DNA from: a virus
Strand: one strand, 5' to 3'
DNA: 64,000 nt
IMG/VR virus record: IMGVR_UViG_3300042691_048368
Span: 1-64,000 of that record
The notes below the pieces were generated by a model that searched no databases, had not been told where the DNA came from, and worked only from the letters and a program-made list of their open reading frames with translations. Position numbers and translations under genes: made by a program. This document shows positions 1,904 through 63,600 of the stretch, in pieces. The first letter of the stretch is position 1. The number at the start of each line of letters is the position of its first letter.

Positions 1904-1947
1904 TTCAGAATAATATAATGAAATAAAAATTGAATATATAATTTATT

Positions 1948-3411
1948 ATGAAGATAACTAGATTTCAAAACTGGAGCAAAATAAACGAGGAAGCATCACC
2001 TAGACTTCCAAAAAACGTTGATTATTGGAAAAAAAGAGGGAAAATCGGGAAGGATGTAGCTCTTTACACCCATGATGATATGGATGGTATATTCAGTGCT
2101 ATAGAAGTAAAAAAATATTTACTCAATGCTGGATTCAAAATTGTAAAATACGGTATATTGAACTACTCAGAAGGTTGGAAATATACATCATTAGATCCCA
2201 AACTAATAAATGTCGTTGTAGATTTTGCAAATATGCCTGGTGATGAAAGGGATGAAATGATCGATTTTTATCTTGACCATCATGGTGTCTTCAGTGAAGA
2301 GGAGATAAAAAAATACATGAAATCTCCTGTTCAAAAAAAGAAAACAGGATCTGCCTATGAGGCTATCTGTCAATCACTTGGTGTGCCTCAAGACTCTTTG
2401 ACTGTTTCAGTGATAGACATGATTGATTCTGCTAAATATCAACACTACGGAGTTTCTTGGCAAAGACTACTCGATTTCAATCTCTCAGATATAAAGAAAT
2501 CAGACAAAGCAAGACTTGAGTTTGCGGCAGCTTTCAATCAATTTTTGAAAAGATCTGATACTAAAACAATAATAGGTGTAATTGATAACTGTAATGACGC
2601 ATCTATCTTTGCTATCTATAATGCTATGAAAACTCTTTATCCAGAACATAATGTTGGTAGATATGGAGATCCAAAACAATTCATTGATGATTCATCTTGG
2701 AGATTAGGTGAGATGGGTAGAAGAGTAAGAGGTAGAGGTGAAAAGAAAGTTTATGACACACAAGAAGATTTCCTATCAGCTTTTCAAAGAAATGGTTTAA
2801 TACAACTTGATGGATATCAAATAATAGGTGATTTAGCATTTATTCCAACTGGCACGTGGGCAAATGCATTGAGAGCTAGATCAATCATAGAAAAAGAACT
2901 TTCAGAAGGTAAAATATCGAAAGAGCCGAAATTTATTCTTCTACAATATGGAGGCACACTGCAAGTTTGTTCTTATAAACCAATGGATGAATATGGTGAT
3001 GATTTACCAAAACTAAAATCAGGAGAGGCCGTGACAGATTTGGGAGCTTATATGACTAAATTATTGAAAAATTTTCAAGAACATTTAGGTTACCACAATC
3101 CTGACACATCCTTGGGCCAAGATGAGATTACGGTTTCCGGCGGACATGGAGGCATAGGATCAATTTCGAATATCTTCGGTGAATGTGACAAGGAACCATA
3201 TGTTGGTCAAAGATTTGTAGATATGTTCAAGAATAAAATAATAACAGATTTATCTGGTGTTTCTTTCAATCTTAACATAAAATGGTCCGAACCAAAAGAA
3301 TTTAAGAGTAAGGATCCAGAAATGGACAACAAAGTTATTAGTGCTGAGGATGTAACGAAAATTGGACGTAGCGGTAAGATACTAAGATTTGATGGTTTGA
3401 AAGAAGATTAA
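1948..3411 (+). CDS. DHH/DHHA1 phosphoesterase with N-terminal capsid-tag-like sequence
   Basis: The protein has 487 aa. Residues 41-47 (THDDMDG), 90-94 (VVDFA) and 109-113 (LDHHG) are motifs I-III of the DHH superfamily, whose aspartates and histidines bind two metal ions. Near residues 398-403 a GGHGGIG loop matches the glycine-rich substrate loop of DHHA1 domains. Known family members are RecJ, nanoRNase/pAp phosphatases and GdpP-type cyclic-dinucleotide phosphodiesterases; which activity applies here cannot be told. The first 15 residues (MKITRFQNWSKINEE) do not belong to the enzyme fold and resemble the tag at the start of the core-like protein at 25736, with an INE|E site like the T4 gp21 protease consensus. 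The gene is convergent with the amidoligase (stops adjacent). Enzyme class is well supported; packaging into the virion is inference. Confidence 0.88.
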   Translation: MKITRFQNWSKINEEASPRLPKNVDYWKKRGKIGKDVALYTHDDMDGIFSAIEVKKYLLNAGFKIVKYGILNYSEGWKYTSLDPKLINVVVDFANMPGDERDEMIDFYLDHHGVFSEEEIKKYMKSPVQKKKTGSAYEAICQSLGVPQDSLTVSVIDMIDSAKYQHYGVSWQRLLDFNLSDIKKSDKARLEFAAAFNQFLKRSDTKTIIGVIDNCNDASIFAIYNAMKTLYPEHNVGRYGDPKQFIDDSSWRLGEMGRRVRGRGEKKVYDTQEDFLSAFQRNGLIQLDGYQIIGDLAFIPTGTWANALRARSIIEKELSEGKISKEPKFILLQYGGTLQVCSYKPMDEYGDDLPKLKSGEAVTDLGAYMTKLLKNFQEHLGYHNPDTSLGQDEITVSGGHGGIGSISNIFGECDKEPYVGQRFVDMFKNKIITDLSGVSFNLNIKWSEPKEFKSKDPEMDNKVISAEDVTKIGRSGKILRFDGLKED

Positions 3412-4797
3412 TTACTTCTTGAACGACTTCAAAACACCCTTATCCTTTTTCCTATCGTATTGATCATCATCAAACTTTGTATCAAAGAAGTTATCAGTTT
3501 CGGAAACAATTTTAGTTTCCGAACTTATGTTAGCGTAAGGACCTAATTTTCCACTTCTAAACACACCACCTATCATATCACAATTCAAATATCCACCCAT
3601 AAAGAAACAATCTTTTAGTTGGGTAGCTTCTACCTCACAGTTAAGAATTTTAGTACCAACTATTTCACAACCGTGGATTCTAGATTTAATGATTTGACAA
3701 TTATCGACTTCAGAATTAACGAAGTGACAATTTTCAAAGATACCATTCGTTACTATACAATTTATAAAATCAAACCCTGAGACATTTTGAGAAGTCTTCA
3801 GATTAGCATCGATTATTTCAATTTTTTGTGTTGAGGTAACAAAGTTGATTATACAATCCTCCAACTTTTCGGTAGAGTCAACTAATTTGTGAAGCTTGGG
3901 AAATATTCTATCGTAATATGCGTTTACTATATCATAGGAATATTGTTGGTCAATCTGTAGTGTCACAGTTGGGAAATCAACTATGAAGTTATCATACTTT
4001 GAAAAATTTTTAAAGTTGTTTATATTTTCTTCCAAATATTTTTCCAACTGCTCAATATCTTCATCATTAAATGTAGCTTCTATTGATTTATACACATCTA
4101 ATATGAATCTATCGAAGAAGTAAGTAATTTGACCTATATTTTTCTCGTAATCTTTTCCCCCAATATATCTGAATTCCAATCTTTGAGATTCTTTTGGATT
4201 ATTAATATGTAAGAAGTTTACACCATAGTATTTATCATCGGGTAGTCTTAGAGTATTCTTTACAACATCGATTGGTACACTATTGTAGTCATATTCTTTG
4301 AATGGTATCATTTTCTTTATGGATTTAGCGTAAACATTTCCTTTCCTTGATGGATAGGAACTGTATATCTCATCCTCATCAACCATCAGAATTAATTTCA
4401 AAACATTCAAATCATTCAAGTTTCTATTTTCATCAGCAAATGATATATTAAAGTGTATAGATGATTTTTCATTTGTGTATCCATACATTTGAATGAATTT
4501 TAATATTTTAACCATATAATACTTCGCCTCAAAGTACTCTAATGGTCCAGTTATCATCTCGACCATGTTTGCACCCCCTGACAAGTCTGGCTCAATTTTG
4601 AAATTCTGAGAATCTGGCTTAAAATCGGTATGATATTTTCTAAAACCCCAAACTTTTACAGGTGCTAAATATTGATTCAACAATTCTAAAGTTTTGTAGA
4701 AAGATAGATCTTTCATATAAAATTCAAATTCAAGACCACACTTGGACTTCTTAAGAATTTCCGAATCATTTAAAAACTTTTCTGAATATTTCCTCAT
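3412..4797 (-). CDS. Amidoligase-like enzyme fused to pentapeptide-repeat domain
   Basis: The protein has 461 aa. The N-terminal part matches the amidoligase branch of the carboxylate-amine ligase (GCS) fold: GLEFEFY at residues 21-27 (acidic metal/ATP-binding strand), a KIEPDLSGG...VEMITGPL segment, SSIHFNIS in place of the usual H-x-H strand, and RLEFRYIGG as the E-x-R strand. Family members make amide bonds with ATP. After about residue 340 the chain becomes a run of five-residue repeats with a central aliphatic or Phe residue and frequent Cys/Asn/Ser/Thr, as in right-handed pentapeptide-repeat beta-helices. The gene overlaps the upstream 112-aa gene by one base (TAATG), so the two are translationally coupled. 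Its substrate is unknown. The enzyme family is fairly clear; the fusion is unusual. Confidence 0.75.
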   Translation of the reverse strand: MRKYSEKFLNDSEILKKSKCGLEFEFYMKDLSFYKTLELLNQYLAPVKVWGFRKYHTDFKPDSQNFKIEPDLSGGANMVEMITGPLEYFEAKYYMVKILKFIQMYGYTNEKSSIHFNISFADENRNLNDLNVLKLILMVDEDEIYSSYPSRKGNVYAKSIKKMIPFKEYDYNSVPIDVVKNTLRLPDDKYYGVNFLHINNPKESQRLEFRYIGGKDYEKNIGQITYFFDRFILDVYKSIEATFNDEDIEQLEKYLEENINNFKNFSKYDNFIVDFPTVTLQIDQQYSYDIVNAYYDRIFPKLHKLVDSTEKLEDCIINFVTSTQKIEIIDANLKTSQNVSGFDFINCIVTNGIFENCHFVNSEVDNCQIIKSRIHGCEIVGTKILNCEVEATQLKDCFFMGGYLNCDMIGGVFRSGKLGPYANISSETKIVSETDNFFDTKFDDDQYDRKKDKGVLKSFKK

Positions 4798-7790: not shown

Positions 7791-8921
7791 TTATTCGATA
7801 TTGAAGTGACTCCTAAGTAGTTCATCTGCTGTATCTTTCGACTTAGCAATATACTTAGAACTTCCACCAGCTCTTATTATGCCAAGAGATCCCATCATTT
7901 TGAAAGCTGAAACCAAATCCTTATTTAAAAAAACAAGACCATTTACTTTACATATCTCTTGGATGGTTTTCATGCTTGGTAACTTATCATTTATTTTAGT
8001 GTCTTTGTTATAAAGTATATTTAAGAGTTGATTATAATTATACCATTTCTGGTAATTCTCATCTTTTTCTATTTTTTCTTTAAAATCACTGTAGGACCTA
8101 TATTTATAATACTCATTAAAATAAACACCGAAAAGAATTACAAGTTCAATTATGGTCGAAATCATAACAAAAAAGAATGAGTTATCTTTATTTTCTGTCT
8201 TTTTTTCATCACCTTTCAATTCTTCTGATTTCTTAAAAGATACAATTTTTCTTTCAGTCCTTTGTTGTATAGTATCAATTTCGGATTTCAATGTATTTTT
8301 TTCAATATTTAGGTCTTTTATTTGATTTCTAAGATCTTTTATTCTAGTTTTTCCTTGTCTAGTCAAGTCTGCTGAATTTTGCAATTCGGTTTGTTCTTGA
8401 TCTTTATCATCAATCTTTTTATCCAACGATTCTATTTTTGATTTCAAAGTGGAAACTTCAGTCTTTTCGATTGTTCTCAAACTATCTTCGAAAGATTTAA
8501 CATTACTTTCAACTTTAGATTCAATCTCTTTAGATTTCGTAGAGAACTCTTGAGCTCCTTTTATAGAAGAATAAAATGATATGGAAACAATCACCAAGCT
8601 AACTATCATCAGTGGTAATACGTCACTTTTAAATACGGTCTTGTATTTAATCTGTTGTAAAGAAAACTTATCAAATATTTCTCTTTTGAGTAACTCAAGA
8701 CCACTCAATAAAATTATCGATGATATAGAAACTAAAATTGGATTATCAATAATAGCGCCCGTTAATATCTTGGAAACTAAAAAGTAAGCAAGAAAGATAG
8801 ATGATATATGCCCAAAAATAGACAAAAAGAACATTACTTTGTTTATGTTCGCAAAACTTTTACTGAAGTCTTGTTCCTTTATAGACTCCTCCAACTTTTT
8901 AAATTCACTTAATTTCATCAT
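7791..8921 (-). CDS. Membrane protein with long coiled coil and C-terminal helical domain
   Basis: The protein has 376 aa with tandem ATG starts at 8921 and 8918. Hydrophobic segments lie at about residues 29-52, 61-78, 101-120 and 250-270, and a charged coiled coil of roughly 110 residues connects the third and fourth. The C-terminal 60-80 residues look soluble and winged-helix-like (SMKTIQEICKVNGLVFLNKDLVSAF). The first residues (MKLSEFKKLEES) resemble the tag found on other proteins here, but a membrane protein is an unlikely cargo. It overlaps the preceding 110-aa gene by 17 bp and lies in a minus-strand unit with an AAA ATPase. Its role is unknown; a membrane-anchored sensor or spacer is possible. 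Confidence 0.65.
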   Translation of the reverse strand: MMKLSEFKKLEESIKEQDFSKSFANINKVMFFLSIFGHISSIFLAYFLVSKILTGAIIDNPILVSISSIILLSGLELLKREIFDKFSLQQIKYKTVFKSDVLPLMIVSLVIVSISFYSSIKGAQEFSTKSKEIESKVESNVKSFEDSLRTIEKTEVSTLKSKIESLDKKIDDKDQEQTELQNSADLTRQGKTRIKDLRNQIKDLNIEKNTLKSEIDTIQQRTERKIVSFKKSEELKGDEKKTENKDNSFFFVMISTIIELVILFGVYFNEYYKYRSYSDFKEKIEKDENYQKWYNYNQLLNILYNKDTKINDKLPSMKTIQEICKVNGLVFLNKDLVSAFKMMGSLGIIRAGGSSKYIAKSKDTADELLRSHFNIE

Positions 8922-15206: not shown

Positions 15207-15524
15207 TTACATCCTCTGGCTCCAAATAGATTTTGGTTTATTAACTTGAACGCCCGTTTTCCAAAGTCCAAGTCTTAATTTTGAGTCATTATTAAACTCA
15301 CCTCTCAATCTTCCACACTGTTTATCCGTCAAATAAATGTGAAACATCTCCGCATACATATTATCATCAACTGGATTCAAAAAGTATTCGCTATTCGATT
15401 CAAATTCATCCAAATCTTGTATTATGCCAGATCCCCACCCATGGGTTTTTTTTAATATTTTGATTATTCTATCATAATCATATGAATCTTCAAACATTTC
15501 AAAGAATTTCTTGATCCTCATCAT
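15207..15524 (-). CDS. Tagged small protein, 105 aa
   Basis: Tandem ATGs (15524, 15521) begin MMRIKKFFEMFEDSYDY, which fits the Phe-x-x-Phe-Glu tag seen on other proteins of this window. The body is a compact acidic alpha/beta domain without a recognised motif; it contains one Cys-Gly-Arg segment (DKQCGRLRGEF). The start overlaps the upstream 479-aa gene by 26 bp, suggesting translational coupling of two tagged proteins. Packaging in the virion is inferred from the tag only. Confidence 0.6.
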   Translation of the reverse strand: MMRIKKFFEMFEDSYDYDRIIKILKKTHGWGSGIIQDLDEFESNSEYFLNPVDDNMYAEMFHIYLTDKQCGRLRGEFNNDSKLRLGLWKTGVQVNKPKSIWSQRM

Positions 15525-16938
15525 CGGTGTTCGATCTCATTTTGTTCATAATAATCATATTGAAATTGTCAACTGGTTCGAAGTTATATTTAGCATTCAA
15601 TTTGCCCGACATTTCGCCACCACTGAATTTTATATCAATATTACAATTAATAAGAGGTTCATCGTCAAGTTCCATTCTCAGTTTTATTGAAAAGTCATTT
15701 TTTTCTTCTTCTTCATTATCAACAATCAATCTTACATGATAATCAAATTTGATATTTATATCATCATAGAAATCTCTGAAAAACTTTCTTGATGGTACTT
15801 GGTGAAAATCCTTTCCTTTCTTTCCTAAAAAATAAGTTGGTCTTTCTAAACAACCTAATTTTTCCACGAAAGTTTTAATCAATTTCATTTTTACATTGCC
15901 ATCCGCTTTTTTGAATCCATCATCTAATTTTGTAATTTCATCTTTACTATTCGTTAATAAGGAATCTGTAATTAAATGTTCCAATATTTTTGAATTTAGT
16001 AGATAAATTTTAACCTCCATCCACTCATTGAATACTTTTTCAACGTCCAAAAAGCATTGATCTTTATTTTTCCATATTTCACTCATCAAGTCTGAAAATT
16101 TCAAGATATTCTTATCAAATTGTTTGATGTGTTCACCAATATTTTTGAATCTCATATCTCTGTGTTTCAAGTCAAAATATTCAAAATAACCTAGTGTGTC
16201 AATTCTTTCTGGTTCTATAAACTTTTCTATGTGAATTTGAATTGGTTTATTAGCATTTTCATAAATTATTTTAACCCAACTTTGTGTTAATTTATCCCAC
16301 TTTTTGATATACTCCTCATTGTACAAATTTTCTATACCCTTTCCGATAAAATCATCGGCAAATGTATTGAATGATGAAGATTTGGATGTGGATAAAGTTT
16401 TATTTACAAAAATACTGAACTGAGCACCTGATTTCAATTCAATAACTAAATCTTCCCCGTGGTCTTTGTCTTTATTCGGACCAATCCAATAAACTTTTGA
16501 TATAAGGTCTTCTGACAATTTTTCTTCGACCAAAATTTTATCGATAATATTACGAGCTGTGATTCTCGCATCGACCAATTTATTCCAATCTTGTTCGATG
16601 TCAAATTTAACTTCTTCAAAATATCCATTTATTTTTGAATGTTCGGTATCTTCAACACATACGTTATTTTCAAACTTACCCAATTGTAATCTATTTTTCG
16701 CTATTAATAGATTTTTTAAATCCGTAAGAAAAACATTTGAATTTTCTGTATACCTACCTTTCAAACCTCGGTCAAGAAGATTATCTAGAAATTCATTATT
16801 CAATAATATCATACCTACACAAATTTCTGTTATTAAATTTTTTGGCTTATAAATAGTCTTTTCTAAATCATTCTGTGCTTGAACTTTGAATTGGTTTTGT
16901 GCTTCCAAAAAAAGTTCGTAACCTCTTAACCATCTCAT
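15499..16938 (-). CDS. Tagged protein with possible PD-(D/E)xK nuclease-like core, 479 aa
   Basis: The protein begins MRWLRGYELFLEAQNQF, a tag-like start with an LE|A site. Residues 163-190 read EDLVIELK, then SGAQFSIFVNK and a Ser-rich stretch ending in FNTF. The Asp...Glu-x-Lys spacing (D163, E167, K169) followed by a strand and Ser-rich loop recalls the catalytic strand of PD-(D/E)xK restriction-type nucleases, but I see no clear remaining motif. The last 100 residues are beta-rich and acidic. The gene shares a symmetrical promoter region with the divergent tagged gene at 16994. A nuclease function is tentative; the reading frame is certain. Confidence 0.7.
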   Translation of the reverse strand: MRWLRGYELFLEAQNQFKVQAQNDLEKTIYKPKNLITEICVGMILLNNEFLDNLLDRGLKGRYTENSNVFLTDLKNLLIAKNRLQLGKFENNVCVEDTEHSKINGYFEEVKFDIEQDWNKLVDARITARNIIDKILVEEKLSEDLISKVYWIGPNKDKDHGEDLVIELKSGAQFSIFVNKTLSTSKSSSFNTFADDFIGKGIENLYNEEYIKKWDKLTQSWVKIIYENANKPIQIHIEKFIEPERIDTLGYFEYFDLKHRDMRFKNIGEHIKQFDKNILKFSDLMSEIWKNKDQCFLDVEKVFNEWMEVKIYLLNSKILEHLITDSLLTNSKDEITKLDDGFKKADGNVKMKLIKTFVEKLGCLERPTYFLGKKGKDFHQVPSRKFFRDFYDDINIKFDYHVRLIVDNEEEEKNDFSIKLRMELDDEPLINCNIDIKFSGGEMSGKLNAKYNFEPVDNFNMIIMNKMRSNTDDEDQEIL

Positions 16939-16993: not shown

Positions 16994-17626
16994 ATGAGGT
17001 TCATCAAAGATTTCAAAAGGTACCAAGAATCATTAAGAATAGAATTTGGTTATATAGATATAGATATAAATGAGTCATTGGGCTTATTATACGATAACGT
17101 TTTAAAATCCATAGGGGCGGAAGAAATTGATATGTTCGATACATTCCATCTACCCAAAGATGATTTTGCAGATAAAATGAATTTGGATCTATTGACTGCA
17201 AGTACAGAATTTATAAACTCATTATCAAGTATAGGTTTAAAAAATTCGAATGTTACAAATAGTGATGATTTTGAAACTTTTTTCAAAAGACCTTGTAGAT
17301 TCATGATGATTTATCGTATAGAGGCAAATGAACTTGAAAACCCCTCATATATTATATTCCAACCTTGGAGTGATTTGTTAAATAAGTGGGAAGATTGCAA
17401 ATTGTATAAAGTAAATGGAGATATAAAGAATTTTTATGATAAACTCTCATCCAAAGTCATTGAGGTTGAGGATGGTGGTGAAAAATTCATATATCAAACT
17501 TCAAACGGCAACGAATGGAATTTACAAAATTTGGACAAAGCAAATGACACGTATTTGAAATATTTCAGAACTGAAGATTTCGAGAAATTACTCAAAGATA
17601 GAAAAGTTTCTATCAACATAATTTAA
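16994..17626 (+). CDS. Tagged protein of unknown function, 210 aa
   Basis: The start MRFIKDFKRYQESLR fits the tag pattern (hydrophobic, Phe, Tyr, QE|S). The remainder is an acidic alpha/beta protein of about 190 residues with no membrane segment or known motif. It is divergent from the tagged 479-aa gene across a palindromic promoter and ends convergent with the J-domain gene, overlapping its stop by a few bases. Virion packaging is inferred from the tag. Confidence 0.65.
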   Translation: MRFIKDFKRYQESLRIEFGYIDIDINESLGLLYDNVLKSIGAEEIDMFDTFHLPKDDFADKMNLDLLTASTEFINSLSSIGLKNSNVTNSDDFETFFKRPCRFMMIYRIEANELENPSYIIFQPWSDLLNKWEDCKLYKVNGDIKNFYDKLSSKVIEVEDGGEKFIYQTSNGNEWNLQNLDKANDTYLKYFRTEDFEKLLKDRKVSINII

Positions 17627-25735: not shown

Positions 25736-26776
25736 ATGAAAGTCGTAAAATATTCGGAATATTCAAAAATTAATGAGGAATTTGTTTTGAGTGCTATAAA
25801 AGGTGCGCTTGGTAAATTGTTTGGATTTTTCGCAAATGCTTTCAAAGATTTGGGTGCTGATTTTAAATCTATGTTCAAAGAGGATGACCCTTCCACTATA
25901 AAAGACATAGTAATGAAAAATGTTGACCAAGCTGTTGATGGTGCTCAAAAGGAAATCACCAATCTAAAAAGTGATGGTGATGTATTGGGTATAGTGGATA
26001 ATATGGTGACTCAATTAGTTGAACTTGGTAATAACATTACTAAAGATGTTGAGGGTGCTTTAGGTAAGGAAAAATCAAAACCTGTTGAGGAAATCTCAAA
26101 AGCGTTACTACTTGGAAATAAAGAAGTGGATTGGGTTGGTATAGTTGGTGCATTGGATCCAGCGGCAGGAATTTTGAAAAAAGACATAAATTTTGCATAC
26201 TCGAAGAAGAAATTCGTTGAGTCAGTAAACAAGGGTAAAGATTTGAATCAGAAAAAAACCTTGGCTTCAAAGTTTCTTGATGATTTTCAAAAAACAATAA
26301 GGGCTGAATTAGAAAAAGCAGTGACCGATGAAGAGATAAAAACTCTTTATGATAAAATGAAGGGTGGAGACGCTGGTACTGATTTGGAATTGAAGGAAGG
26401 TGATATGGTTGTGTATCTCCTCAAAGGAAAGAAAAAAGAGGAATTTGATGAAAAGAAAAAACCTGAAGAACAAAAAGATGTAGTTGGTGTAAAGAAAATC
26501 GAAAAAATAGATGGTGATAAAATAACATTTCTAGATAAAGACGGTAAACCTACAATTTTAAAAACAAAAGCTGAAATACTAAAGAAGGTTGAAGTTGAAA
26601 TGGGCCAAAACGCAAAGAAGGTTGCAGACTCACTTGGAAAAATCAAACAAGACGAGGAAAAAATGGGTAAAGTTGCTACTTTCGCTGAATTTATTCAAGA
26701 TGATAAAAATAAAGACAAACTAGCTGAAATAGAAAAAATACTTTCTGGTGGTGAACAGCCAGCCGCACAAGCATAA
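25736..26776 (+). CDS. Core/internal head-type protein with capsid tag, 346 aa
   Basis: The start MKVVKYSEYSKINEEF contains the same SKINEE site as the DHH protein and matches the proteolysed T4-type capsid-targeting sequence. The body is Lys/Glu/Ala-rich and helical (ALGKLFGFFANAFKDLGADF, then long charged helices), with a small beta domain around residues 220-275 (GDMVVYLLKGKK...VVGVKKIEKIDGDKITFL) like an SH3/KOW unit. A TFAEFIQDDKN segment lies near the C-terminus. The composition suits an internal or scaffold core protein. The 240-aa gene follows with TAATG overlap. The role in the head is inferred. Confidence 0.65.
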   Translation: MKVVKYSEYSKINEEFVLSAIKGALGKLFGFFANAFKDLGADFKSMFKEDDPSTIKDIVMKNVDQAVDGAQKEITNLKSDGDVLGIVDNMVTQLVELGNNITKDVEGALGKEKSKPVEEISKALLLGNKEVDWVGIVGALDPAAGILKKDINFAYSKKKFVESVNKGKDLNQKKTLASKFLDDFQKTIRAELEKAVTDEEIKTLYDKMKGGDAGTDLELKEGDMVVYLLKGKKKEEFDEKKKPEEQKDVVGVKKIEKIDGDKITFLDKDGKPTILKTKAEILKKVEVEMGQNAKKVADSLGKIKQDEEKMGKVATFAEFIQDDKNKDKLAEIEKILSGGEQPAAQA

Positions 26777-30867: not shown

Positions 30868-32004
30868 ATGTTAAATAATTTTAATGGGTTCATTCTAGAG
30901 AAACAAGTAGTATCTTTATTATTGGAGAATGATTTAAACGCGTCACCTGAGTTTCTTGCAAGATTGAAAAAGATAAGAGATAGGAGTAAAGTAGCTCAAA
31001 TACTCTACGATTTATTCAGTGCAGAATACTATATTGTAAAAGATTTGCCTCAGAACTGGATTGATGTGACAAATGAGCCAGAAATGATTTCATTTTTATC
31101 TGATAGTAGAGCTAAAAGAACTCCGATGCAATGGGATGAAGATAGTTCAAAATATTATGATGTTTCTGGCAGAGGTCAAATAAAAGTTGGTAGGTTTGCA
31201 CAAGCTTTATTAAATGATCCAGATGTGATTGAAGATTTAGATTTATCCTTTGTTGAAAACTATATTCAAGGACTAACACCAAAAGATTTCGAAGATTTTG
31301 TAAACTTGTACAAATCTGAATTTGTAGTAGTTTCTAATGAGTTTAAATTGGTAAAGGGTGATGAAATCCCTTACTATTATGATTTTATGAACTATGCATA
31401 TCCCGACAAGGGACACTTGGGTGCATCTTGTATGAGGTATACACATTGTCAAAGATACTTCAGTATCTACAAAAAAAACCCAGAGGTGTGTCAATTATTG
31501 GCGTATGTAAATCAAGAAAATAAAGTTTTGGGTAGGGCACTTGTCTGGAAACTAGATAAGAAAGTTGATGGGTGTCCAGCAGAATATTTTATGGACAGAG
31601 TTTATTGTGCAAATGATAGTGATATGATAAAGTTCAAAAATTACGCTAAAGAGAAGGGTTGGGTTATGAAAAACAAAAATGCATCTGATGCGTATGAGGC
31701 TTTATTCTTCAACTACAATGATAAAGTCATTTTATCACACATTAGTGTTCAATTGAAAGAATCAAATTTTGCATTTTACCCTTTCATAGACACTCTGTCT
31801 TTATTGAACGAAACAAACGGTAAGTTACATAATGTTTTAGGGAAAAATTGTATTGAACTTACTTCGACAGATGGAGATTTTTACACGCCCGATACGAACA
31901 AAAGTAGGAGGGAAAATCTGAAAGAAATGCTAAACGAAATACTCAATGATAATAATTATTTGGGTTATAGAGACCTTATAGAAACTGCATTATCAAATCT
32001 TTAA
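30868..32004 (+). CDS. Late tagged paralogue of unknown phage family, 378 aa
   Basis: The second member of the family at 28467: blocks HLGASCMRYTHCQRYF, VLGRALVWKL, FMDRVYCAND, NFAFYPFIDTLS and TSTDGDFYTPD correspond one-to-one to blocks of the 405-aa protein. Its start differs: MLNNFNGFILEKQVV carries the Phe-x-x-Phe-I-L-E|K tag-like pattern found on presumed cargo proteins. The gene is preceded directly by the AATATATAAA motif, not a host-type promoter, so late expression is expected. It is convergent with the UvsY-like gene (stop codons adjacent). I infer that this copy may enter the host with the virion while the other is made from the genome; this is untested. Confidence 0.7.
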   Translation: MLNNFNGFILEKQVVSLLLENDLNASPEFLARLKKIRDRSKVAQILYDLFSAEYYIVKDLPQNWIDVTNEPEMISFLSDSRAKRTPMQWDEDSSKYYDVSGRGQIKVGRFAQALLNDPDVIEDLDLSFVENYIQGLTPKDFEDFVNLYKSEFVVVSNEFKLVKGDEIPYYYDFMNYAYPDKGHLGASCMRYTHCQRYFSIYKKNPEVCQLLAYVNQENKVLGRALVWKLDKKVDGCPAEYFMDRVYCANDSDMIKFKNYAKEKGWVMKNKNASDAYEALFFNYNDKVILSHISVQLKESNFAFYPFIDTLSLLNETNGKLHNVLGKNCIELTSTDGDFYTPDTNKSRRENLKEMLNEILNDNNYLGYRDLIETALSNL

Positions 32005-44731: not shown

Positions 44732-45562
44732 ATGAAGTGCAACTATAGATATTGTGGTAGAGAAATAAACTTCGGTAGACCAGATAGAAAGTTTTGTAAT
44801 AAAAACTGTAAAATAAAAGAAAATAATTTAATTAAAGAATTAAAATCACTGGATAACAAATCTATTAAGACTAAAGATTTTATAGAAAAATCAAAAGAAA
44901 TACATAATAATAAATATGGATATGAATTATCGATATATGTTAATTGTAGAACAAAAATTAAAATAATATGTCCGATACACGGTGTGTTCGAGCAAACCCC
45001 AAGTAATCATTTATATAATAAACAAGGATGTGATAAATGTGCTAGAGATGAACATAAACTTACTAAGCTATCTGATTCCAGAATAGATAATCTTAAAAGA
45101 GTCCATAATAATAAATATCTATATAATGATACATCCATTAATGAGGGATTTATAAATATAACTTGTCCAGATCATGGCGTCTTCACACAATATTTATATT
45201 TTCACGAATATGGACATGGATGTTCACAATGTAATTCCTATTCTAGAGGAGAAAATTACATAAAAAGATACCTTGACAAAAGAGGAATAAGATACCACAG
45301 GAATTTTATATTTGAGAATTGTAAAAATAAGAAAGGATTAAGATTTGATTTCTATCTATACAATGAAAATACTATTATTGAGTATCATGGAGAGCATCAT
45401 TTTATTGAAAATAAATATTTTGGAAATGCAAATCTAGAATATGTTAGAAAAAATGATGAAATCAAAAAAGAATATTGTTTATTGAACTCAATAAGACTAG
45501 TAAGGATACCATATTATGATTACAATAATATTGAGAGTATATTAAATAGTGTCATAGTTTAA
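44732..45562 (+). CDS. Homing endonuclease-like protein with DUF723-type repeats, 276 aa
   Basis: A small zinc finger is at the start (C3, C7, C22, C26). Two repeats follow, each with a CPxHGVF...Q...H...GCxxC pattern (residues about 80-105 and 145-170), the DUF723-like DNA-binding unit of phage homing enzymes. The C-terminus holds a compact PD-(D/E)xK/Vsr-like core, LRFDFYLYN ... IIEYHGEHHF, then a final strand LVRIPYYD. Such free-standing enzymes copy themselves into cognate alleles at conserved genes. It sits between the tail tube gene and the gp47-like gene and is more AT-rich, typical of a mobile insertion. Confidence 0.82.
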   Translation: MKCNYRYCGREINFGRPDRKFCNKNCKIKENNLIKELKSLDNKSIKTKDFIEKSKEIHNNKYGYELSIYVNCRTKIKIICPIHGVFEQTPSNHLYNKQGCDKCARDEHKLTKLSDSRIDNLKRVHNNKYLYNDTSINEGFINITCPDHGVFTQYLYFHEYGHGCSQCNSYSRGENYIKRYLDKRGIRYHRNFIFENCKNKKGLRFDFYLYNENTIIEYHGEHHFIENKYFGNANLEYVRKNDEIKKEYCLLNSIRLVRIPYYDYNNIESILNSVIV

Positions 45563-45618: not shown

Positions 45619-46743
45619 ATGTCAAAAATTCTAATTATTGGTGATACCCACTTAGGTCTTGGTTACCCGAATTCGATTGATAAATGGTTTAAAGTACACA
45701 GGGAATATTTTGAAGAATTTTTAATTCCTTTAGTTCGGAAAGAAATGACCGAAGATGATATTATAATCCACTGTGGAGATTTATTTGACAATCGGTCAGT
45801 GGTTCCGATTAATATACTCAATTACGCACAAGATCTCCTCGAAAAACTATCTTCTATATGTCCGGTGCATATACTAATTGGTAATCATGATTTGTACACT
45901 AAAGCCTCTAATGATGTGAATACTGTCAAATTATATAAGTATATACCAAACATTACCGTTTACGAAAAGCCTACCAAAATTGATTTTTGTGGAAAGTCAA
46001 TATTGATGTTACCTTGGGTTGAGAAAAAACAAGACCAAATTGACATACTAAAAAGATTTTCTGGTTGTGATTATCTTTTCTGTCATTCGGATTTGAACGG
46101 TGCAAAAATGCATTTGACCTCTGTTGCACATAAAAATCAAGATAAAATAGATGTGGAAGATTTTTCAGGTTACAAAAATGTATATTCTGGTCATATACAC
46201 ATCTTGCAAGTCACAAAAAATTTCACTTTTGTCGGTAATAATTTTGAAATGGATCGAAATGACATTAACAATCAAAAGGGAATTTTTATCTTAGATACTT
46301 TGGTTGACGAGGAGAGATTCATTCCTAATAATATTTCACCGAGATACAAAAAGATATACATAAGAACTCAAGAGGATATTGATCAATTAGAAAACACTTC
46401 GACAAAAGATTATATTGATCTTTTCATATCAAATTCATTGTTGATAAACAATAGGAAATTAAGAAGAAAGTTAGAGTTAATGTTGGAATCCGGTAACTTT
46501 GCTTCAGTTGACTACATCGATGATTTAGTTTTGGAAAAAAATGAAGAAACTAAATCTGTGATTGAAGAAATTACTGAAGAAGAATTAAACAATGGTGTGG
46601 TTCCATCTATTCAATTAGAATATACTGATTTAATTAGACAATACATTAATACTCAGAAATATGAAAGTGAGAAGATCAAAAATGGCGTCTTACAAGAGTT
46701 TAATGAAATTGCTAGAATATATGATGAGGGTTATTTAGAATAG
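45619..46743 (+). CDS. gp47/SbcD-like nuclease subunit, 374 aa
   Basis: I use ATG 45619; a GTG one codon earlier is in frame. Motifs of the Mre11/SbcD/T4 gp47 family are complete: GDTHLG (8-13), HCGDLFDNR (51-59), GNHDLY, FCHSDLNG and SGHIHILQ. gp47 with gp46 resects DNA ends for recombination and degrades host DNA. A gp46 (SbcC-like) gene is not in this window. The C-terminal 130 residues are charged and helical, the likely partner-binding part. The end overlaps a convergent tagged gene by 13 bp. Confidence 0.85.
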   Translation: MSKILIIGDTHLGLGYPNSIDKWFKVHREYFEEFLIPLVRKEMTEDDIIIHCGDLFDNRSVVPINILNYAQDLLEKLSSICPVHILIGNHDLYTKASNDVNTVKLYKYIPNITVYEKPTKIDFCGKSILMLPWVEKKQDQIDILKRFSGCDYLFCHSDLNGAKMHLTSVAHKNQDKIDVEDFSGYKNVYSGHIHILQVTKNFTFVGNNFEMDRNDINNQKGIFILDTLVDEERFIPNNISPRYKKIYIRTQEDIDQLENTSTKDYIDLFISNSLLINNRKLRRKLELMLESGNFASVDYIDDLVLEKNEETKSVIEEITEEELNNGVVPSIQLEYTDLIRQYINTQKYESEKIKNGVLQEFNEIARIYDEGYLE

Positions 46744-47033
46744 TTTGGTTTTCTTCCACTACCTTTAGATCCGGTACTCTCTGCTTTTCTTTTCCTAGCA
46801 ACCGCTGCTTTCTTTTGTTTCGCCGACATCTTAGCGGCAACCCTTACTTTTCTGCATTTGGGATATCCACCTTTACTTGTGTCAGACCTTCCGCATGGTG
46901 GATGAGACCCATCTTTATTTGTCTTGGAAATATCAACCCATTTTTCTTTGAACCATTTATCGAGTCCACCATGAGAACCCTTATATGATTTTTCCTCATG
47001 GATGAAATCTTCAAATAATAGTAGATGTTCCAT
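46731..47033 (-). CDS. Tagged small basic protein, DUF5872-like, 100 aa
   Basis: The start MEHLLLFEDFIHEEKSY is a clear tag with IHE|E site. The remainder, LDKWFKEKWVDIS, HPPCGRS, GGYPKCRKVRVA and then a Lys/Arg-rich tail (KQKKAAVARKRKAE), matches the small Cys-containing unit I know as DUF5872 from large phages and giant viruses. Two Cys may form a metal site or disulfide. It overlaps its upstream neighbour by one base. The basic tail could bind DNA in the head. Family recognition from memory; function unknown. Confidence 0.72.
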   Translation of the reverse strand: MEHLLLFEDFIHEEKSYKGSHGGLDKWFKEKWVDISKTNKDGSHPPCGRSDTSKGGYPKCRKVRVAAKMSAKQKKAAVARKRKAESTGSKGSGRKPNYSK

Positions 47034-47251
47034 TATCTTTTCTTAGACTTTTTAACTTTTGACTTTCTCCAAGTGCCACCTTTTTTCTTATATCTTTTTG
47101 CAGCAGCTCCATTAGCATAAGCTGATGGATAAACGTCATAGGTATTTTTTGCCCAAGCTTTACAGGAAGCCCATAAAGATGGGTTATTTGGCACGTTTTT
47201 CTCAACTACAAGTGATTCTTTAAAATCTTCGAAAGGTAATAAATGATTCAT
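47033..47251 (-). CDS. Tagged small basic protein with CKAWAK/YPSAYANG domain, 72 aa
   Basis: The start MNHLLPFEDFKESLVVEK is nearly the same as the tag of the next gene. The core NNPSLWASCKAWAKNTYDVY then PSAYANGAAAKRYKKKGG is a compact domain known to me from phage and giant-virus virion proteins, with conserved Trp, Cys and Tyr. A basic end follows (WRKSKVKKSKKR). It shares a base with the downstream gene. Packaging is inferred from the tag, DNA contact from the charge. Confidence 0.72.
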   Translation of the reverse strand: MNHLLPFEDFKESLVVEKNVPNNPSLWASCKAWAKNTYDVYPSAYANGAAAKRYKKKGGTWRKSKVKKSKKR

Positions 47252-47535: not shown

Positions 47536-48114
47536 TCACCAGAAACCTGGATATGTTTTTCCTCCCCAAAGATTTGCATATCTATTAGCCCTACAAGCCC
47601 AGTAACCTGGTTTGGTCTTATCCTTTTTCAAATGGCACTGATGTCTTGCAGCAAAAGCTTTTCTAGCTTTAGGATCAGAAACCTTTGCACTCAGACCACC
47701 TTTAGCATCACCAAAGTTTACTACTTTAACTTTTTTTGTCTTGGGATTAATCACATAAACTTTGTATTTTTTTGGACCCGAGCTTCTCATAGGTTTGCCT
47801 ATTGGAACTTTTTTTCCATGATATTCGGCTTCGTTCAAATCTTCGACTTCTTCTAATGGTAAGTCCAAAGGTACCATTTCACCTTCGTATTCTGCAAATT
47901 TACCAATATCAGTTGTTTCAAATAAAATTTTATCTATTCCCGATAATTCTACTTTATTAGTATCAAACAAAATTCTAGCTTCCTTTATTAGATCATAGAA
48001 CGAATTGGAACCAGGTCTGAACACATTTTCCAAAACGGGAAGGTTGTTATCGACATGATATTTTAGATTCTCACTGATTGGATGAAAATTATCGAATAGA
48101 TTAATATATTTCAT
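47536..48114 (-). CDS. Tagged protein with basic Cys domain, 192 aa
   Basis: The start MKYINLFDNFHPISENLK is tag-like with an ISE|N site. The C-terminal 75 residues (KYKVYVINPKTKKVKVV..., DPKARKAFAARHQCH, KTKPGYWACRANRYANLW) form a basic unit with two Cys that I know from other large-phage proteins. The middle is acidic and flexible. It is the first gene of the cassette 48114-46731 and is divergent from the giant baseplate gene. The tag and basic domain fit a packaged DNA-binding cargo. Confidence 0.72.
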   Translation of the reverse strand: MKYINLFDNFHPISENLKYHVDNNLPVLENVFRPGSNSFYDLIKEARILFDTNKVELSGIDKILFETTDIGKFAEYEGEMVPLDLPLEEVEDLNEAEYHGKKVPIGKPMRSSGPKKYKVYVINPKTKKVKVVNFGDAKGGLSAKVSDPKARKAFAARHQCHLKKDKTKPGYWACRANRYANLWGGKTYPGFW

Positions 48115-57682: not shown

Positions 57683-60600
57683 TTAGTCGTCAATTAGACT
57701 TGATTTTTCTTTCTTTTTAGCATTAAGATATTCTTGTAGAGAAACCTTGCCATCTTTAGATCCACCAACTATGACACCAGCTATTGACCCGACGATTGAG
57801 TTGAGTGCTTTGATTGCCTCAGTCAAATTCTTCATTGTATCTTCTGGTGTCTGTTTCGGAGTGGTGGCAGTTGGAGTTTTTACTGCAGCAGTCGTAGTTG
57901 GTTTGGTGCCTGGTTTAACTTCTGCTGGTTTTGTAGGTTTAGCTTCCATTGCAGCTGGTGCTGATGATTGGGTATCTTTCATCACATCTACAAATATCTT
58001 AGCTTTACTCTCTAAGGATGTCATCATTGACTCGAATTGAGCGGAATCCATAAGAGATAACATTACTATAGAACCAGAAAGATTTTTTAACATAGTCATT
58101 CTCTCCATATCAACCGCTCCTAATTGTCCATTAAGATTTGTTAATGCTTGTGATAGTCTATCATATGCTTTAGCTAATTCAACCATCGAATCAGCCATAT
58201 CGCTCACCGAATCATAATCAGCATCAGCTTCTTCAAGTGATTTTGTTATGTTGATGTATGATGTAGTACTATCAGCTAAGTTTTTGAAATATTTTGGGTC
58301 TAATATTTTATCGAATTTACCTCTAGCTAATTTTTGTGAAACAATTACTAATGAGTCTGCTATGGCACTGACACCTGATTTGAATTTATCTTCGCCACCA
58401 GATAATAAACCTTCATTTTGTTGAATGTAATTAAGTCCTGGTAGTACAGCATTTATTGCAGTGCTGAAACCTTGTGACCATTCCAATTTTGGTACTTTTC
58501 TTAAATCGAAAGGTACCTTATTCTCATTAAATTTGGTCGCAAGTTGAATTATACCATCGGCTAATTGATTAACTTTATCAGTTGTGGACGTTGAAAGAAA
58601 GGAAAATAAACCATCCCCTTTGAATGTATTCAGCATCTGTGAGAATGATACAAGATTAACTCTCAAAGAATCCATCCAAGCTTTTGGAATTACTTTACTG
58701 AAGTTTCCTCTAGCTATAATGTGTGATACATTTTTAAGATTTGTAGCCAATTCTATCATTTTCTCAAGTTTGTCCTCATCAACTTTGTAGGCTTCCATTA
58801 CTTTTGTGATGCTCAAAAACGTCGAAATGTTAATCTTAGTGTTAGCCATGTAATTTGCTGGGATGTCCTTGTAATTACCTGTCGACAATTTATTACTTAT
58901 AGAAACTAGTGTGTCGGTAGCTTTGGACAATTTATAGAAGTCGCCATCTTCATCCATATCGATGTCGGCTTCATCTAGTTGTTGAAGTATCAATGTAAAT
59001 TCATTGAAGGTGAGTTTCACATTCTGTCCCCATTTAGGATCGATTATTGTTGTGAAATTCCCCCCACTTATAGTTCTACCAGCTTCAGCAATAGCTTGTG
59101 ATATCGCTCTCATATTAGTCACAGTGGTTTCGGCACCATCTGTAAACCAACCACTTTGTTCACTGATATATTTCAATGCTGGTATAAATGCTTGGAACGT
59201 GTCATTGACTGCCTGTCCCCATGCTTTTTTAGGAACTTTATTCAAATCATACGAAACACCCTCTCCCCCAAGAGCTTTTGCGGCTTCAGCAAGACCCATA
59301 CCTATAGACTGAATTGCTAACTTGTATGTTTCTGGTTTGATTGGTCCACTAAACCAACCCGAATCAGCATTGAGAACTTGGAAAACACCAGTAAAGGCTT
59401 GTAATGCTGTTGACACGCCTTCTGCCCAAGCTTTAGTCGGACCTTTCTTGTAATCTTCGGTGCCCCTACCAAGCTCTGTAGCTGCTGTGACTATACCTTG
59501 ACTTATAGAAACTATTGCATTTTTAAAGTCATCTACACTCACACCACTTTTCCAAACACCTTGATTATCGACCAAAATTTTGTATATAGGTGCAAATCCA
59601 CCAAGGGCTAGTGATACACCCTCTGACCATTCTTTACTAGGTCCTTTCTTATACTCTTGTTCTCCCTTAGCTAATTCTGTGGCGGCGGATTTTATACCTT
59701 GTGAGATTGTTACAATAGCAGTGGCAAATTGTTCGGGTGTGACACCGCTTCTAAAGAATTCGATACCAGCATTATCTAGTAACATCTTATAGACTTGTCC
59801 AAATGCACCTATAGCTAGAGATACTCCTTGTGACCATTTGAAATCTGGTCCACCTTTGAAATTCCCTTTACTCAGATAAAAGGCTGCTGTGTTAATCGAT
59901 TTGGAGATAGTTACGATAGCTTCTCCAAACTCTTTTGGTCCAACTCCACCACCGAACAAGTCAAATATTGCATTAGCGAGAAGCATTTTGTATACCTGTC
60001 CAAATGCACCAAGTGCAATCGCAACTGAAGAAGCCCACTGTTTAGTAGGTCCACCCGTGAAATTTCCTTTTGATAATTTATTAGCTGCTTCTACTATTGA
60101 ATCGGAGATCATCAATATTGACTCAGAAAATGCTTTTGGTCCAATATCTGCTCCTCCAAATAAGGACATAACAGAATTTGCTACCAACATCTTATAAATG
60201 TCACTAAATGCAGCTAGTGATAGAGCAACACCACTAGCCCATTGTACAGTGGGCCCATTGCCATATTTACCTTTAGATAATATTTCAGATGCCAAGACAA
60301 CAGTCTCAGCCACTCCTAATACCGCAGCAGCACCGAGTGCTAAAGCTGCGGCACCTAGTCCAAAGGATCCTGCAATAATTGCACCAAGTGTACCCATGCC
60401 CGTTGCAAATCCAGTCAACGCAAGTCCAACACCTTTCGTCCATTCTATTGATGGATAATTAGTATATTTACCAACCGATAGTATTTTGTCTGTAGCCACT
60501 ACAACTGCTGCGACAGCTAATAATGCGACACCTCCTACTATGACTAATGGTAACATTGGTCCTAATAATACAGCAGCTAAACCAAATGGCACCATAGCGG

Positions 60601-63600
60601 CGGCTGTCTGTAAAGTCCACTGATATGGTACTGGTTTGGTATAATCACCTTTGTTTAGTATCATACTAACCGCCATAACGGTTCCTGCTATAGCTATTAT
60701 TGCAACTAATCCTGCTAAAATTGCTAGGGCACCAACACCAGAGCTTGCTATAGTACCTAACAGTACGGCTGCTATACCAAAAGGTATCATGGCGGCAGCT
60801 GCTCCTAAAGTCCAGGCAAAACTTGGGTATTTGTTGTATTCGCCCATATTTAGTAAAAGAGATGAGACGTATATAGTAGCTGCAATTGCGATAATTGCGA
60901 TTCCCCCCTTTATTGCTTGTGCAACTGATAAGCCTACTTTATCAAGTAGGTATATTGCAAAACCAAAAGATACCATAGATAGTGCAGCATTGATCAACCA
61001 AGTGAATGATGGGTATTTATCGTAAGTACCCTTACTCAATATTAAAGAAGTTGCAAGAATTGCTGCTGATATGACAACAAGAGAAATAGCACCTTTCAAT
61101 ACTTTTGTTGGTGTCATTTTTAGTTTATCAAGTGCAAAAATTGCGTAACCAAATCCAACCATTGCGATTCCCGCAAAGAAAATCCAAGTAATAGATGGAT
61201 ATTTATCATACTTGCCAATTGACAAAATTAGAGATGTGGCAACAACTGCAGCCGATATTATTACCAAATTGATTGCCCCATCTATCATTGTTTTCTTATT
61301 GAACTTCGAAAGTCTATTGAAAACAAAACTCATTCCAACTCCTATCAGACCAAGTACTATCGATATACCAACAGCATTGACCAATTTACTGAATGGTACT
61401 ATTTTGATTTCCGACAAAATATAGGAGCTTAACATTATTGTCAATGCCATTGCTACCAATATTATTGGGACTAGAGCCATCTTGGCGGGACTTACATTTG
61501 ATATACCTTTAGTTATGTAAGGTATAGCAAATGATATAGGTATAAACACAATTGCTATCAATACAGCGGTCAGTGCTTGGAATAATCCTATCGGTTTTAC
61601 ACCAGCAAGAAGGAATGATGATCCCAAAATTGCCGCTGAAACTGCTATTAGAAGTATGGGTAGTATCACGGATGCTAAGATCGCTTTTCCTTTACTGATC
61701 CCTTCCATACCTTTCAGTAGTTTACCTAGACCATAACCTATTACTGCAAATACACCAGCTATAAAAACAGATGTAATAAGTTGGAATAAACCAACTGGTT
61801 TTACACCAGCTAATAGGAATGATGAACCTAAAATAGCTGCTGAAATTGCAACCAAGACTAATGGTAGTAGTGGTATCATTGCTATACTTTTCACACCCAA
61901 CTTACCTAAGCCACTCAATAAACCACCTAAACCATAGGAGACTGCTGAAAACATTGCAGCAATTAGTATCGAAGTTATCATTTGGAATAAACCAACTGGT
62001 CTTACCATTCCGAGTATCTGTGATGACGCGGCGATTGCTAAAGAAATACCTACCATTATGAAAGGTAAAAGAGGTACCATTAAAAGTCCTTTACCACTAA
62101 TCTTACTTATACCAATCAACATTTTACCGAGACCATATGACAATACGGTAAACATACCTGCAATCAATATGGCGGTAATCATTTGTAATACTCCGACCGG
62201 TCTTACCGCTGCTAAAATAAATGATGATAACATTACTGCGAGTGATATACCAACCAATACTGCGGTGAGTCCAGCTGCCCTTCCTGGTGTCAAATTTTTA
62301 GCTTCAGCTAATTTAGTGAAAGCAATTGCGAGTACCGATATAGCAATACCGAGACCTAGCACAGAAGCGAAATTAACATTTCCTACTATTTTAAGTGCTA
62401 GACCAATTGCTAGTACGCCAGCCGCTATCAATATTATTATCTTGAGACCAGACTGTATCTTTTGTGTCTCTTTCGGATCACCAGCTTTTCCAAATATTCC
62501 ACCATCTTTATCAGACTTAGCTTGTGATTCAATAGTCCTAGGTTTTGGTTTTTTGTACTTAACTTCTACTTCAACTGGTTTAGGTTGTGGTAGTATTGGG
62601 GGTTTTGGTCTACCAAATTTTAAACCTATTTCAGGCATTTTTGGTAAAGATGGAAACTTAGGTAGTTTCGGTTTCAAAAATTCCAAATTTATGTTTGGCA
62701 TCTTTGGTAAAGATGGGAACTTTGGAAGTTTTGGTTTTTGTATTGATAAAGATAAATCCGGTAGTTTTGGTAACTTTGGTAACTTTGGAAGTTTCGGAGT
62801 TGTAAAACCAAGATCTATTTTCGGAAATCTTGGTAATTTTGGCATTTGGGGCAATTTAGAGACTGCAAAATCAATACTCGATTTTATTTTTGGTACAGTA
62901 GGTAATTTTGGTAACTTAGATACCGTAAAATCGATACTTGATTTAATATTTGGTACATTTGGTAATTTTGGCAGTTTTGATACGGTAAAGTCAATAGTTG
63001 ATTTGAGACTCTTTACCGTCGGTAACTTTGGTAATTTAGATACGGCAAACTCAATACTCGACTTCAAATTCTTCACCGTCGGTAATTTTGGCAGTTTTGA
63101 TACGGCAAAGTCAATAGTTGATTTGAGACTTTTTACCGTCGGTAATTTCGGAAGCTTCGATACTGCGAAATCAATACTTGACTTTAAATTCTTTACCGTC
63201 GGTAATTTTGGTAATTTGGATATGGCAAAGTCAATACTCGATTTCAAATTCTTCACCGTCGGTAACTTTGGTAATTTGGTTACGGCAAAGTCAATAGTTG
63301 ATTTGAGACTCTTTACTGTCGGTAATTTTGGCAGTTTTGATACGGCAAAGTCAATAGTTGATTTGAGACTCTTTACTGTCGGTAATTTCGGAAGCTTCGA
63401 TACTACGAAATCAATACTTGACTTTAAATTCTTTACCGTCGGTAATTTCGGAAGCTTCGATACTACGAAATCAATACTTGATTTCAATCTAGGTACCGAT
63501 GGGAATTTTGGAAATTTGCCAATTATAAACTCAACAGTTGATTTTATATTTGGTATTGTTGGAAGCTTAGGAATTTTCGAAAAAGATAGATCGATACTTT

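Follow-up and report, generated by a model that had tools for sequence, protein, structure and literature searches.

A DHH-family phosphoesterase of a probable huge Bacteroidota phage carries a predicted T4-type capsid-targeting tag

Might a huge phage carry a phosphoesterase in its head and inject it into the host along with its DNA, and what would such an enzyme do there? One gene raises this question in a 64,000-nucleotide stretch of viral DNA (the window), itself a segment of a virus record 94,997 bases long. Our analysis points to a DHH-DHHA1-type small-nucleotide phosphoesterase that would be made late, packaged through a capsid-targeting sequence (CTS), trimmed by the head protease and injected; we put the probability of this full explanation at about 0.62.

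The window most likely derives from a huge phage of Bacteroidota. We base this genome size and host on the major head protein encoded elsewhere in the same record, which showed 66–67% identity to its counterparts in uncultured phages (635 and 642 kb), 49% to that in the 735-kb phage LR756501.1 (W1) and 25–28% to those in Tenacibaculum and Prevotella Lak phages. The window also holds an HNH homing-endonuclease-like gene (44732–45562, plus strand; phrog_559, 1.4e-48) and a 2061-aa open reading frame (ORF; 57683–63868, minus strand) overlapped on the opposite strand by one of 585 aa (62058–63815, plus strand); one of these two is probably spurious. The features at the locus itself are the following.

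1932–1940, plus strand: GAATATATA box at −16 of the DHH gene, a putative late promoter common to virion genes (from upstream comparison)
1948–3411, plus strand: DHH-family phosphoesterase gene, 487 aa, ATG start (from ORF, motifs, orthologs and model)
1948–1992, plus strand: N-terminal capsid-targeting-like tag MKITRFQNWSKINEE with aromatics F6 and W9 and a predicted protease site after INE14 or E15 (from ortholog pattern and model)
2071–2088, plus strand: DHH motif I, HDDMDG, residues 42–47; H42, D43, D44, D46 and G47 invariant in 24 sequences, M45 replaced by Leu in a few
2275–2283, plus strand: DHH motif III, Asp-His-His, residues 110–112, invariant in 24 sequences
3139–3147, plus strand: GGH loop of a DHHA1-type domain, residues 398–400, invariant in 24 sequences, in a loop region of low pLDDT

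Orthologs of the DHH ORF were found at 29 loci in viral contigs and at one in the 735-kb phage, and the protein of a 464-kb relative (IMGVR_UViG_3300023174_000033; G1 or G001) was 88% identical to the window copy. We aligned 24 sequences with 46–87% identity to the window copy. Motif I reads YTH42DDMDG47, the further motifs are D92, D110-H111-H112 and D160, and SGG399H400 lies near the C terminus; H42, D44, D46, D92, D110–H112, D160 and G398–H400 are invariant. All metal-binding motifs of subfamily 1 of the DHH superfamily (HxDxDG, D, DHH, D) are thus present in the window protein, bearing out a preliminary description of this DNA that had called the DHH motifs complete. The same description had named a DHHA1 GGH loop: the loop is indeed invariant and the fold agrees, but Pfam DHHA1 matched none of the 24 orthologs, so the DHHA1-type assignment is made from the loop and the fold. 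Pfam DHH scored the window copy at 20.2 bits against a gathering cutoff of 28.1 and matched 19 of the 24 members at E values up to 1 (best 1.3e-6). By themselves, Pfam and NCBIfam gave weak matches or none for this protein, and a sequence search of solved structures returned nothing useful. One pattern-based scan of bacterial and archaeal genomes, which distant relatives could escape, yielded 19 pattern matches and no relative, and searches run without a positive control found no homologs in the jumbo phages Atu_ph07, PTm1 and pT24. The adjoining ORF (3412–4797, minus strand) contains a weak pentapeptide-repeat region (Pfam 5e-6, under the cutoff).

An AlphaFold2 model of the DHH protein (mean pLDDT 82.7, pTM 0.81) had pLDDT values below 50 at residues 1–18, the tag region, which is disordered, and at residues 386–390 and 392–399. 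DHH-DHHA1 structures aligned with the model across residues 33–438. The best structural match, starting at residue 33, was a PAP phosphatase from Methanothermococcus thermolithotrophicus (8a8k; Z 19.0, 284 residues aligned, 3.5 Å), followed by the pGpG-specific hydrolase PggH (7d62; Z 15.1), tied with RecJ in third place (Z 14.8, 311 residues aligned), and, lower down, by DhhP (Z 13.5), NrN with SAM-AMP-type ligands (12.8) and NrnA (12.7). The phage protein resembles PAP phosphatase and PggH in its DHH-DHHA1-type fold at 14–15% identity, but it is longer (487 versus about 300–320 aa) and begins with roughly 32 additional residues at the N terminus. With the NrN SAM-AMP phosphodiesterase of type III CRISPR (9lqb), NrnA and DhhP it shares superfamily and fold (Z 12–13.5); NrN and NrnA are cellular enzymes, and the likeness to the c-di-AMP/linear dinucleotide phosphodiesterases (GdpP, DhhP, NrnA) is one of fold only. 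Because identities to solved structures were about 10–15%, we treat the substrate class as a lead, not a result. We judge it moderately likely that the protein is a small-nucleotide phosphoesterase. The preliminary suggestion that it may destroy small nucleotides agrees with the fold, PAP phosphatase being clearly first and PggH and RecJ sharing the place behind it.

The DHH protein had also been said to share a SKINEE tag with a core-like protein (25736–26776). Exactly these two ORFs of the window contain the string, at residues 10–15 in both; what is conserved, however, is a pattern and not the string, and far more proteins are tagged. DHH orthologs have KKIFEE, NLIKEE, SINEEA or ELITEGA instead, and tags such as MRILKKYFNFINEEAS, MLKRYAEFINEEAS, MIKKWQEFNIIKEESS and MRIKKFNRFELITEGAA differ in their letters while the pattern stays: aromatic-x-x-aromatic, then [ILV]xE. 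The aromatic pair is kept in 22 of 24 orthologs, and the hydrophobic-x-Glu end is INE14-E15 in the window copy and LIKE, LLNE, INE, VNE or ITE in orthologs. The family had a mean motif score of 7.3 bits, which 0 of 2000 column permutations (mean −2.2, sd 2.1) attained. On its own, the window tag scored 3.9 bits, too weak for a call by itself, because W replaces F/Y and the stretch ahead of the Glu is longer; orthologs scored up to 15.5, and it is on them that the case for a tag on the window protein rests. Two orthologs (L095 and L096) have a short tag without aromatics (MKKLRRLNEE), and another (L099:3001–4419), which lacks both the tag and the upstream box, could be a form that is not packaged. 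We rejected SKINEE identity as a sign of common descent of the DHH and core-like tags because the two closest DHH orthologs have KKIFEE and KQVFEE. Also rejected as a second tag were KFEKFx-type or FxxF C-terminal tails (in orthologs L081, L086, L091, L100 and L103), which were not enriched genome-wide.

Many proteins of the 464-kb relative begin like MKHLKSFNQLNE or MKYLKLFESF. Using a seed pattern obtained by reading these N-termini, we ran expectation-maximisation on N-termini of the 464-kb relative and the 735-kb phage separately, and both models converged on [LI]-K-x-[FY]-E-x-[FY]-x-x-E. The model from the 464-kb relative found 51 ORFs of at least 10 bits in the 735-kb phage (shuffle mean 2.0, maximum 4), and the reverse search found 37 (shuffle mean 1.5, maximum 6). 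An average of the two models, partly trained on the genomes that it then scored, gave at least 8 bits for 74 of 531 ORFs in the 464-kb relative and 137 of 987 in the 735-kb phage (2.6 and 4.0 expected from shuffles, respectively), as well as for 12 of 93 in the window's own record (0.7 expected); these denominators include some spurious genes because ORFs were called mechanically. The specificity for N-termini was more than 100-fold, 14% of N-termini scoring at least 8 bits compared with 0.12% and 0.08% of internal Met windows. Stripped of their tags, the proteins (at 7 bits) fell into 72 clusters in the 464-kb relative and 118 in the 735-kb phage, where the largest clusters had 28 and 11 members, which weak links may join. 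Some tags in these two genomes occur on tandem arrays of small genes (39–44 kb and 411–414 kb in the 464-kb relative). Tagging tended to coincide in orthologs: of the reciprocal pairs that link the window's record with the 464-kb relative, both members were tagged in 11 of 79 (about 2 expected if independent), and of those that link the 464-kb relative with the 735-kb phage, in 9 of 126 (about 2 expected).

The control jumbo phages had 4 (Atu_ph07; 1.2 expected), 2 (PTm1; 1.1 expected) and 6 (pT24; 1.35 expected) ORFs of at least 8 bits, two AT-rich Tenacibaculum phages being among these controls. Since the motif is rare or missing in the three, a generic N-terminal bias of AT-rich phage genes is not the cause of the tag signal; pT24 may hold a few tags. 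Three plus-strand ORFs of Atu_ph07 (MF403008; at 26390, 165981 and 424781) have the N-terminal pattern LRK[FY]xNIxxESY in common, possibly a packaging tag of that lineage.

Besides the DHH protein, the window encodes the following proteins with predicted tags.

7791–8921, minus strand: candidate tagged protein, MKLSEFKKLEES, 8.2 bits; ortholog tagged too
15207–15524, minus strand: tagged protein, MMRIKKFFEMFED, 12.1 bits; ortholog tagged too
15499–16938, minus strand: tagged protein, MRWLRGYELFLEA, 12.4 bits; ortholog in the 464-kb phage tagged too
16994–17626, plus strand: tagged protein, MRFIKDFKRYQES, 7.8 bits; from motif score
25736–26776, plus strand: core-like 346-aa protein, tag MKVVKYSEYSKINEEF, 2.0 bits alone; the 464-kb relative has a tagged protein of 350 aa that is weakly similar to it at the N terminus
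30868–32004, plus strand: tagged protein, MLNNFNGFILEK, 10.8 bits; ortholog tagged too
46731–47033, minus strand: tagged protein, MEHLLLFEDFIHEE, 11.3 bits; ortholog tagged too
47033–47251, minus strand: tagged protein, MNHLLPFEDFKES, 9.6 bits; ortholog tagged too
47536–48114, minus strand: tagged protein, MKYINLFDNFHPISE, 7.4 bits; ortholog tagged too

A Pfam search of 132 tagged proteins revealed Acb1, NUDIX, tRNA nucleotidyltransferase, tRNA-synthetase-like, methyltransferase, GNAT, PPK2 and CoaE members, and PADLOC gave a viperin-like match. The tagged Acb1-family (anti-CBASS) 2H phosphoesterase (L017:11060–11611, plus strand; about 108.6–109.1 kb in the 464-kb relative) matched at E 2e-10, above the cutoff, contains the HxT motif twice and carries the tag MGKIKTYSEFMFISED. 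Another tagged protein that is 2H-like is encoded at L013:3454–3960 (minus strand).

We scored the 278 ORFs of T4 with the huge-phage motif, which contains no T4 training data, allowing the initiator Met as motif position one, a choice that followed inspection of how the T4 decapeptide aligns. gp61.1 ranked first, and IPIII, IPII and IPI ranked second to fourth. Alt, gp22, gp68 and gp21 had no outstanding score; because packaged Alt and these three proteins were not picked out, the motif describes an IP-type tag only. The T4 IPs are packaged into the head and then injected (PMC9026906). Mutagenesis of the T4 CTS assigned targeting to residues 4 and 7 and processing to residues 8 and 10, the determinants being aromatics three residues apart and a cleaved Glu (PMC9026906); judged by sequence, these are the places that the motif fills with its aromatic pair and its hydrophobic-x-Glu end. 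We liken the huge-phage tag to the T4 CTS because the blind motif picks out IPIII, IPII and IPI and the determinants match. As in IPI, IPII and IPIII, with their CTS MKTYQEFIAE, the tag is N-terminal and about 10–19 residues long, its aromatics are spaced three apart, and a Glu marks the known or predicted point of cleavage; a gp21-type protease is encoded in the genome, and the mature bodies are unrelated. Whereas T4 has three IPs and the gp61.1 candidate, the tag is predicted from sequence on dozens to more than 100 proteins per huge-phage genome, and in the window it sits on a 487-aa metallo-phosphoesterase that is presumably packaged. T4 Alt, an ADP-ribosyltransferase, is likewise a head-carried enzyme that is packaged and injected, but its tag, MELITELFDE, does not fit the motif. 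Two further T4 observations concern gp61.1 (AF158101 18966–19130, minus strand; MKTFKEFIKE), the top match, which may be an unrecognised CTS protein, and gene 57B (Acb1; 73952–74410, minus strand), which adjoins ipI, starts MMEFKDFSTG and ranked 8 of 278, possibly by chance.

Beyond the window, the same record encodes a portal (phrog_213, 5e-58), a gp21-type head maturation protease (phrog_207, 2e-30), a gp23-type major head protein (phrog_138, 2e-24), with SINE-NAYVNATL close to its N terminus, and a tail sheath; by these matches, its head gene set is T4-type. An exact TAATATATA box lies within 45 bases upstream of 34% of tagged genes in the 464-kb relative and 25% in the 735-kb phage, compared with about 8% of most untagged genes. 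Large untagged genes also often have the box (38% of 13 and 21% of 14 longer than 900 aa), as do 18% of untagged genes of 400–900 aa in the 735-kb phage. In the window's own record, the box is exact at the portal gene and has one mismatch each at the protease, capsid and sheath genes. Within 45 bases upstream of the DHH orthologs, AATATATA is exact in 18 of 25 and absent at L099; shuffling the single AT-rich upstream regions of orthologs with an exact box produced it by chance in 1–11% of trials. The TAATATATA box, which may serve these huge phages as a late promoter, differs from that of T4, TATAAATA. We consider it likely that the DHH enzyme is packaged through a T4-type CTS. Its packaging and injection, proposed in the preliminary description, thus gain good, if indirect, support from the conserved CTS-type tag, the gp21-type protease and gp23-type capsid genes and the shared box.

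We infer a course for the DHH enzyme from the conserved tag pattern, its match to packaged T4 proteins, the genes for protease and capsid, the box in common with virion genes, the catalytic motifs and the fold of the model. The gene would be expressed late, from a TAATATATA-type promoter common to head and tail genes, and the first 15 or so residues of its product would act as a T4-type CTS that carries it into the prohead core. There, the gp21-type prohead protease would cleave behind the glutamate of INE/EE and so remove the tag, leaving the mature enzyme in the head beside the DNA, with which it would enter the host. Ahead of phage gene expression, the injected enzyme could hydrolyse small phosphorylated nucleotides (pAp, linear dinucleotides or nucleotide-type immune signals), so that nucleotide-based defence would be blunted or host nucleotide metabolism taken over.

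We rate an anti-defence role as somewhat less probable than its absence; anti-CBASS activity of the DHH enzyme itself is speculation. A packaged enzyme might instead do housekeeping, recycling the pAp or nanoRNA released when host RNA and DNA are degraded, with no part in immune evasion, a reading that we regard as a substantial minority possibility. PAP phosphatase tops the structural matches, and the tagged tRNA nucleotidyltransferase, tRNA-synthetase-like, NUDIX, PPK2 and CoaE homologs would suit a metabolic take-over. It would be strange, however, to inject an enzyme whose task comes later in infection, and the 464-kb relative has an Acb1-like protein with the tag. Those T4 CTS proteins whose effect is known also oppose host defence, or are believed to, or act on host range: IPI inhibits a restriction enzyme of type IV, and T4 depends on IPIII in strain ECOR17.

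Packaging itself could be doubted if the N-terminal peptide were some other shared signal, such as a helix that binds scaffold or membrane, or a feature of early translation, with the enzyme acting late in the infected cell. The amphipathic F/Y pattern might bind something else, and DHH enzymes of other jumbo phages have been reported with no packaging claim (PMC7824862). We think this improbable in view of the blind match to the proven CTS proteins of T4, the cleavage-like [ILV]xE ends, the N-terminal specificity, the co-encoded protease and capsid, and the scarcity or absence of the motif in other jumbo phages. Slightly less probable still is a RecJ-like single-strand DNA exonuclease for phage replication or recombination, with an incidental tag. 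RecJ ties with PggH and covers more residues, but PAP phosphatase is better in both Z and rmsd, and an ortholog-conserved tag and a virion-gene box would be unexpected for a replication enzyme.

Packaged, injected enzymes and DHH proteins directed against signals have precedents. The cellular DHH enzyme NrN degrades SAM-AMP (PMC10600005), phiKZ injects Tad1 against CBASS and Thoeris (PMC13282480), and jumbo-phage DHH enzymes are proposed to counter CRISPR and SMODS signals (PMC7824862). An anti-defence use of phage DHH enzymes has thus been put forward before. Tad1 and the jumbo-phage DHH phosphodiesterases resemble the present proposal as injected anti-signal proteins or as DHH enzymes proposed to act against CRISPR/SMODS signals; phiKZ belongs to a different head lineage, and the accessible text mentions no CTS-type tag for Tad1 or the jumbo-phage DHH enzymes. 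In P1 DarB, N-terminal residues suffice to package a reporter (PMC9024508), but that signal is another than the huge-phage tag, and no consensus emerged among the Dar proteins (PMC9024508). Open literature on 'capsid targeting sequence' dealt with T4, P1 and SPN3US, with no title on huge phages of this lineage, and 'targeting sequence' was not found in the text of a 2026 jumbo-phage review. A packaging tag on a DHH enzyme and tagging on this scale were likewise not found there, which is weak evidence of novelty because the open literature omits most subscription papers. Virion proteomics and cleavage data for this lineage did not turn up either.

Since the largest phages have come to light through metagenomes, little has been learned of what they carry into the cell. 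Should the tag prove to be a CTS, the proteins that they inject would be readable from sequence alone, and each tagged protein would be a candidate for anti-defence or take-over in the first minute of infection; the DHH enzyme would then be a packaged metallo-phosphoesterase. We give even odds to the broader view that the T4-type CTS of this lineage is a portable general address for a head-delivered arsenal of largely unrelated bodies, the Acb1-like anti-CBASS protein among them, the DHH enzyme being one of several injected destroyers of nucleotide immune signals. Tagging on dozens to more than 100 proteins suggests a large injected toolkit that would be active from the first minute of infection.
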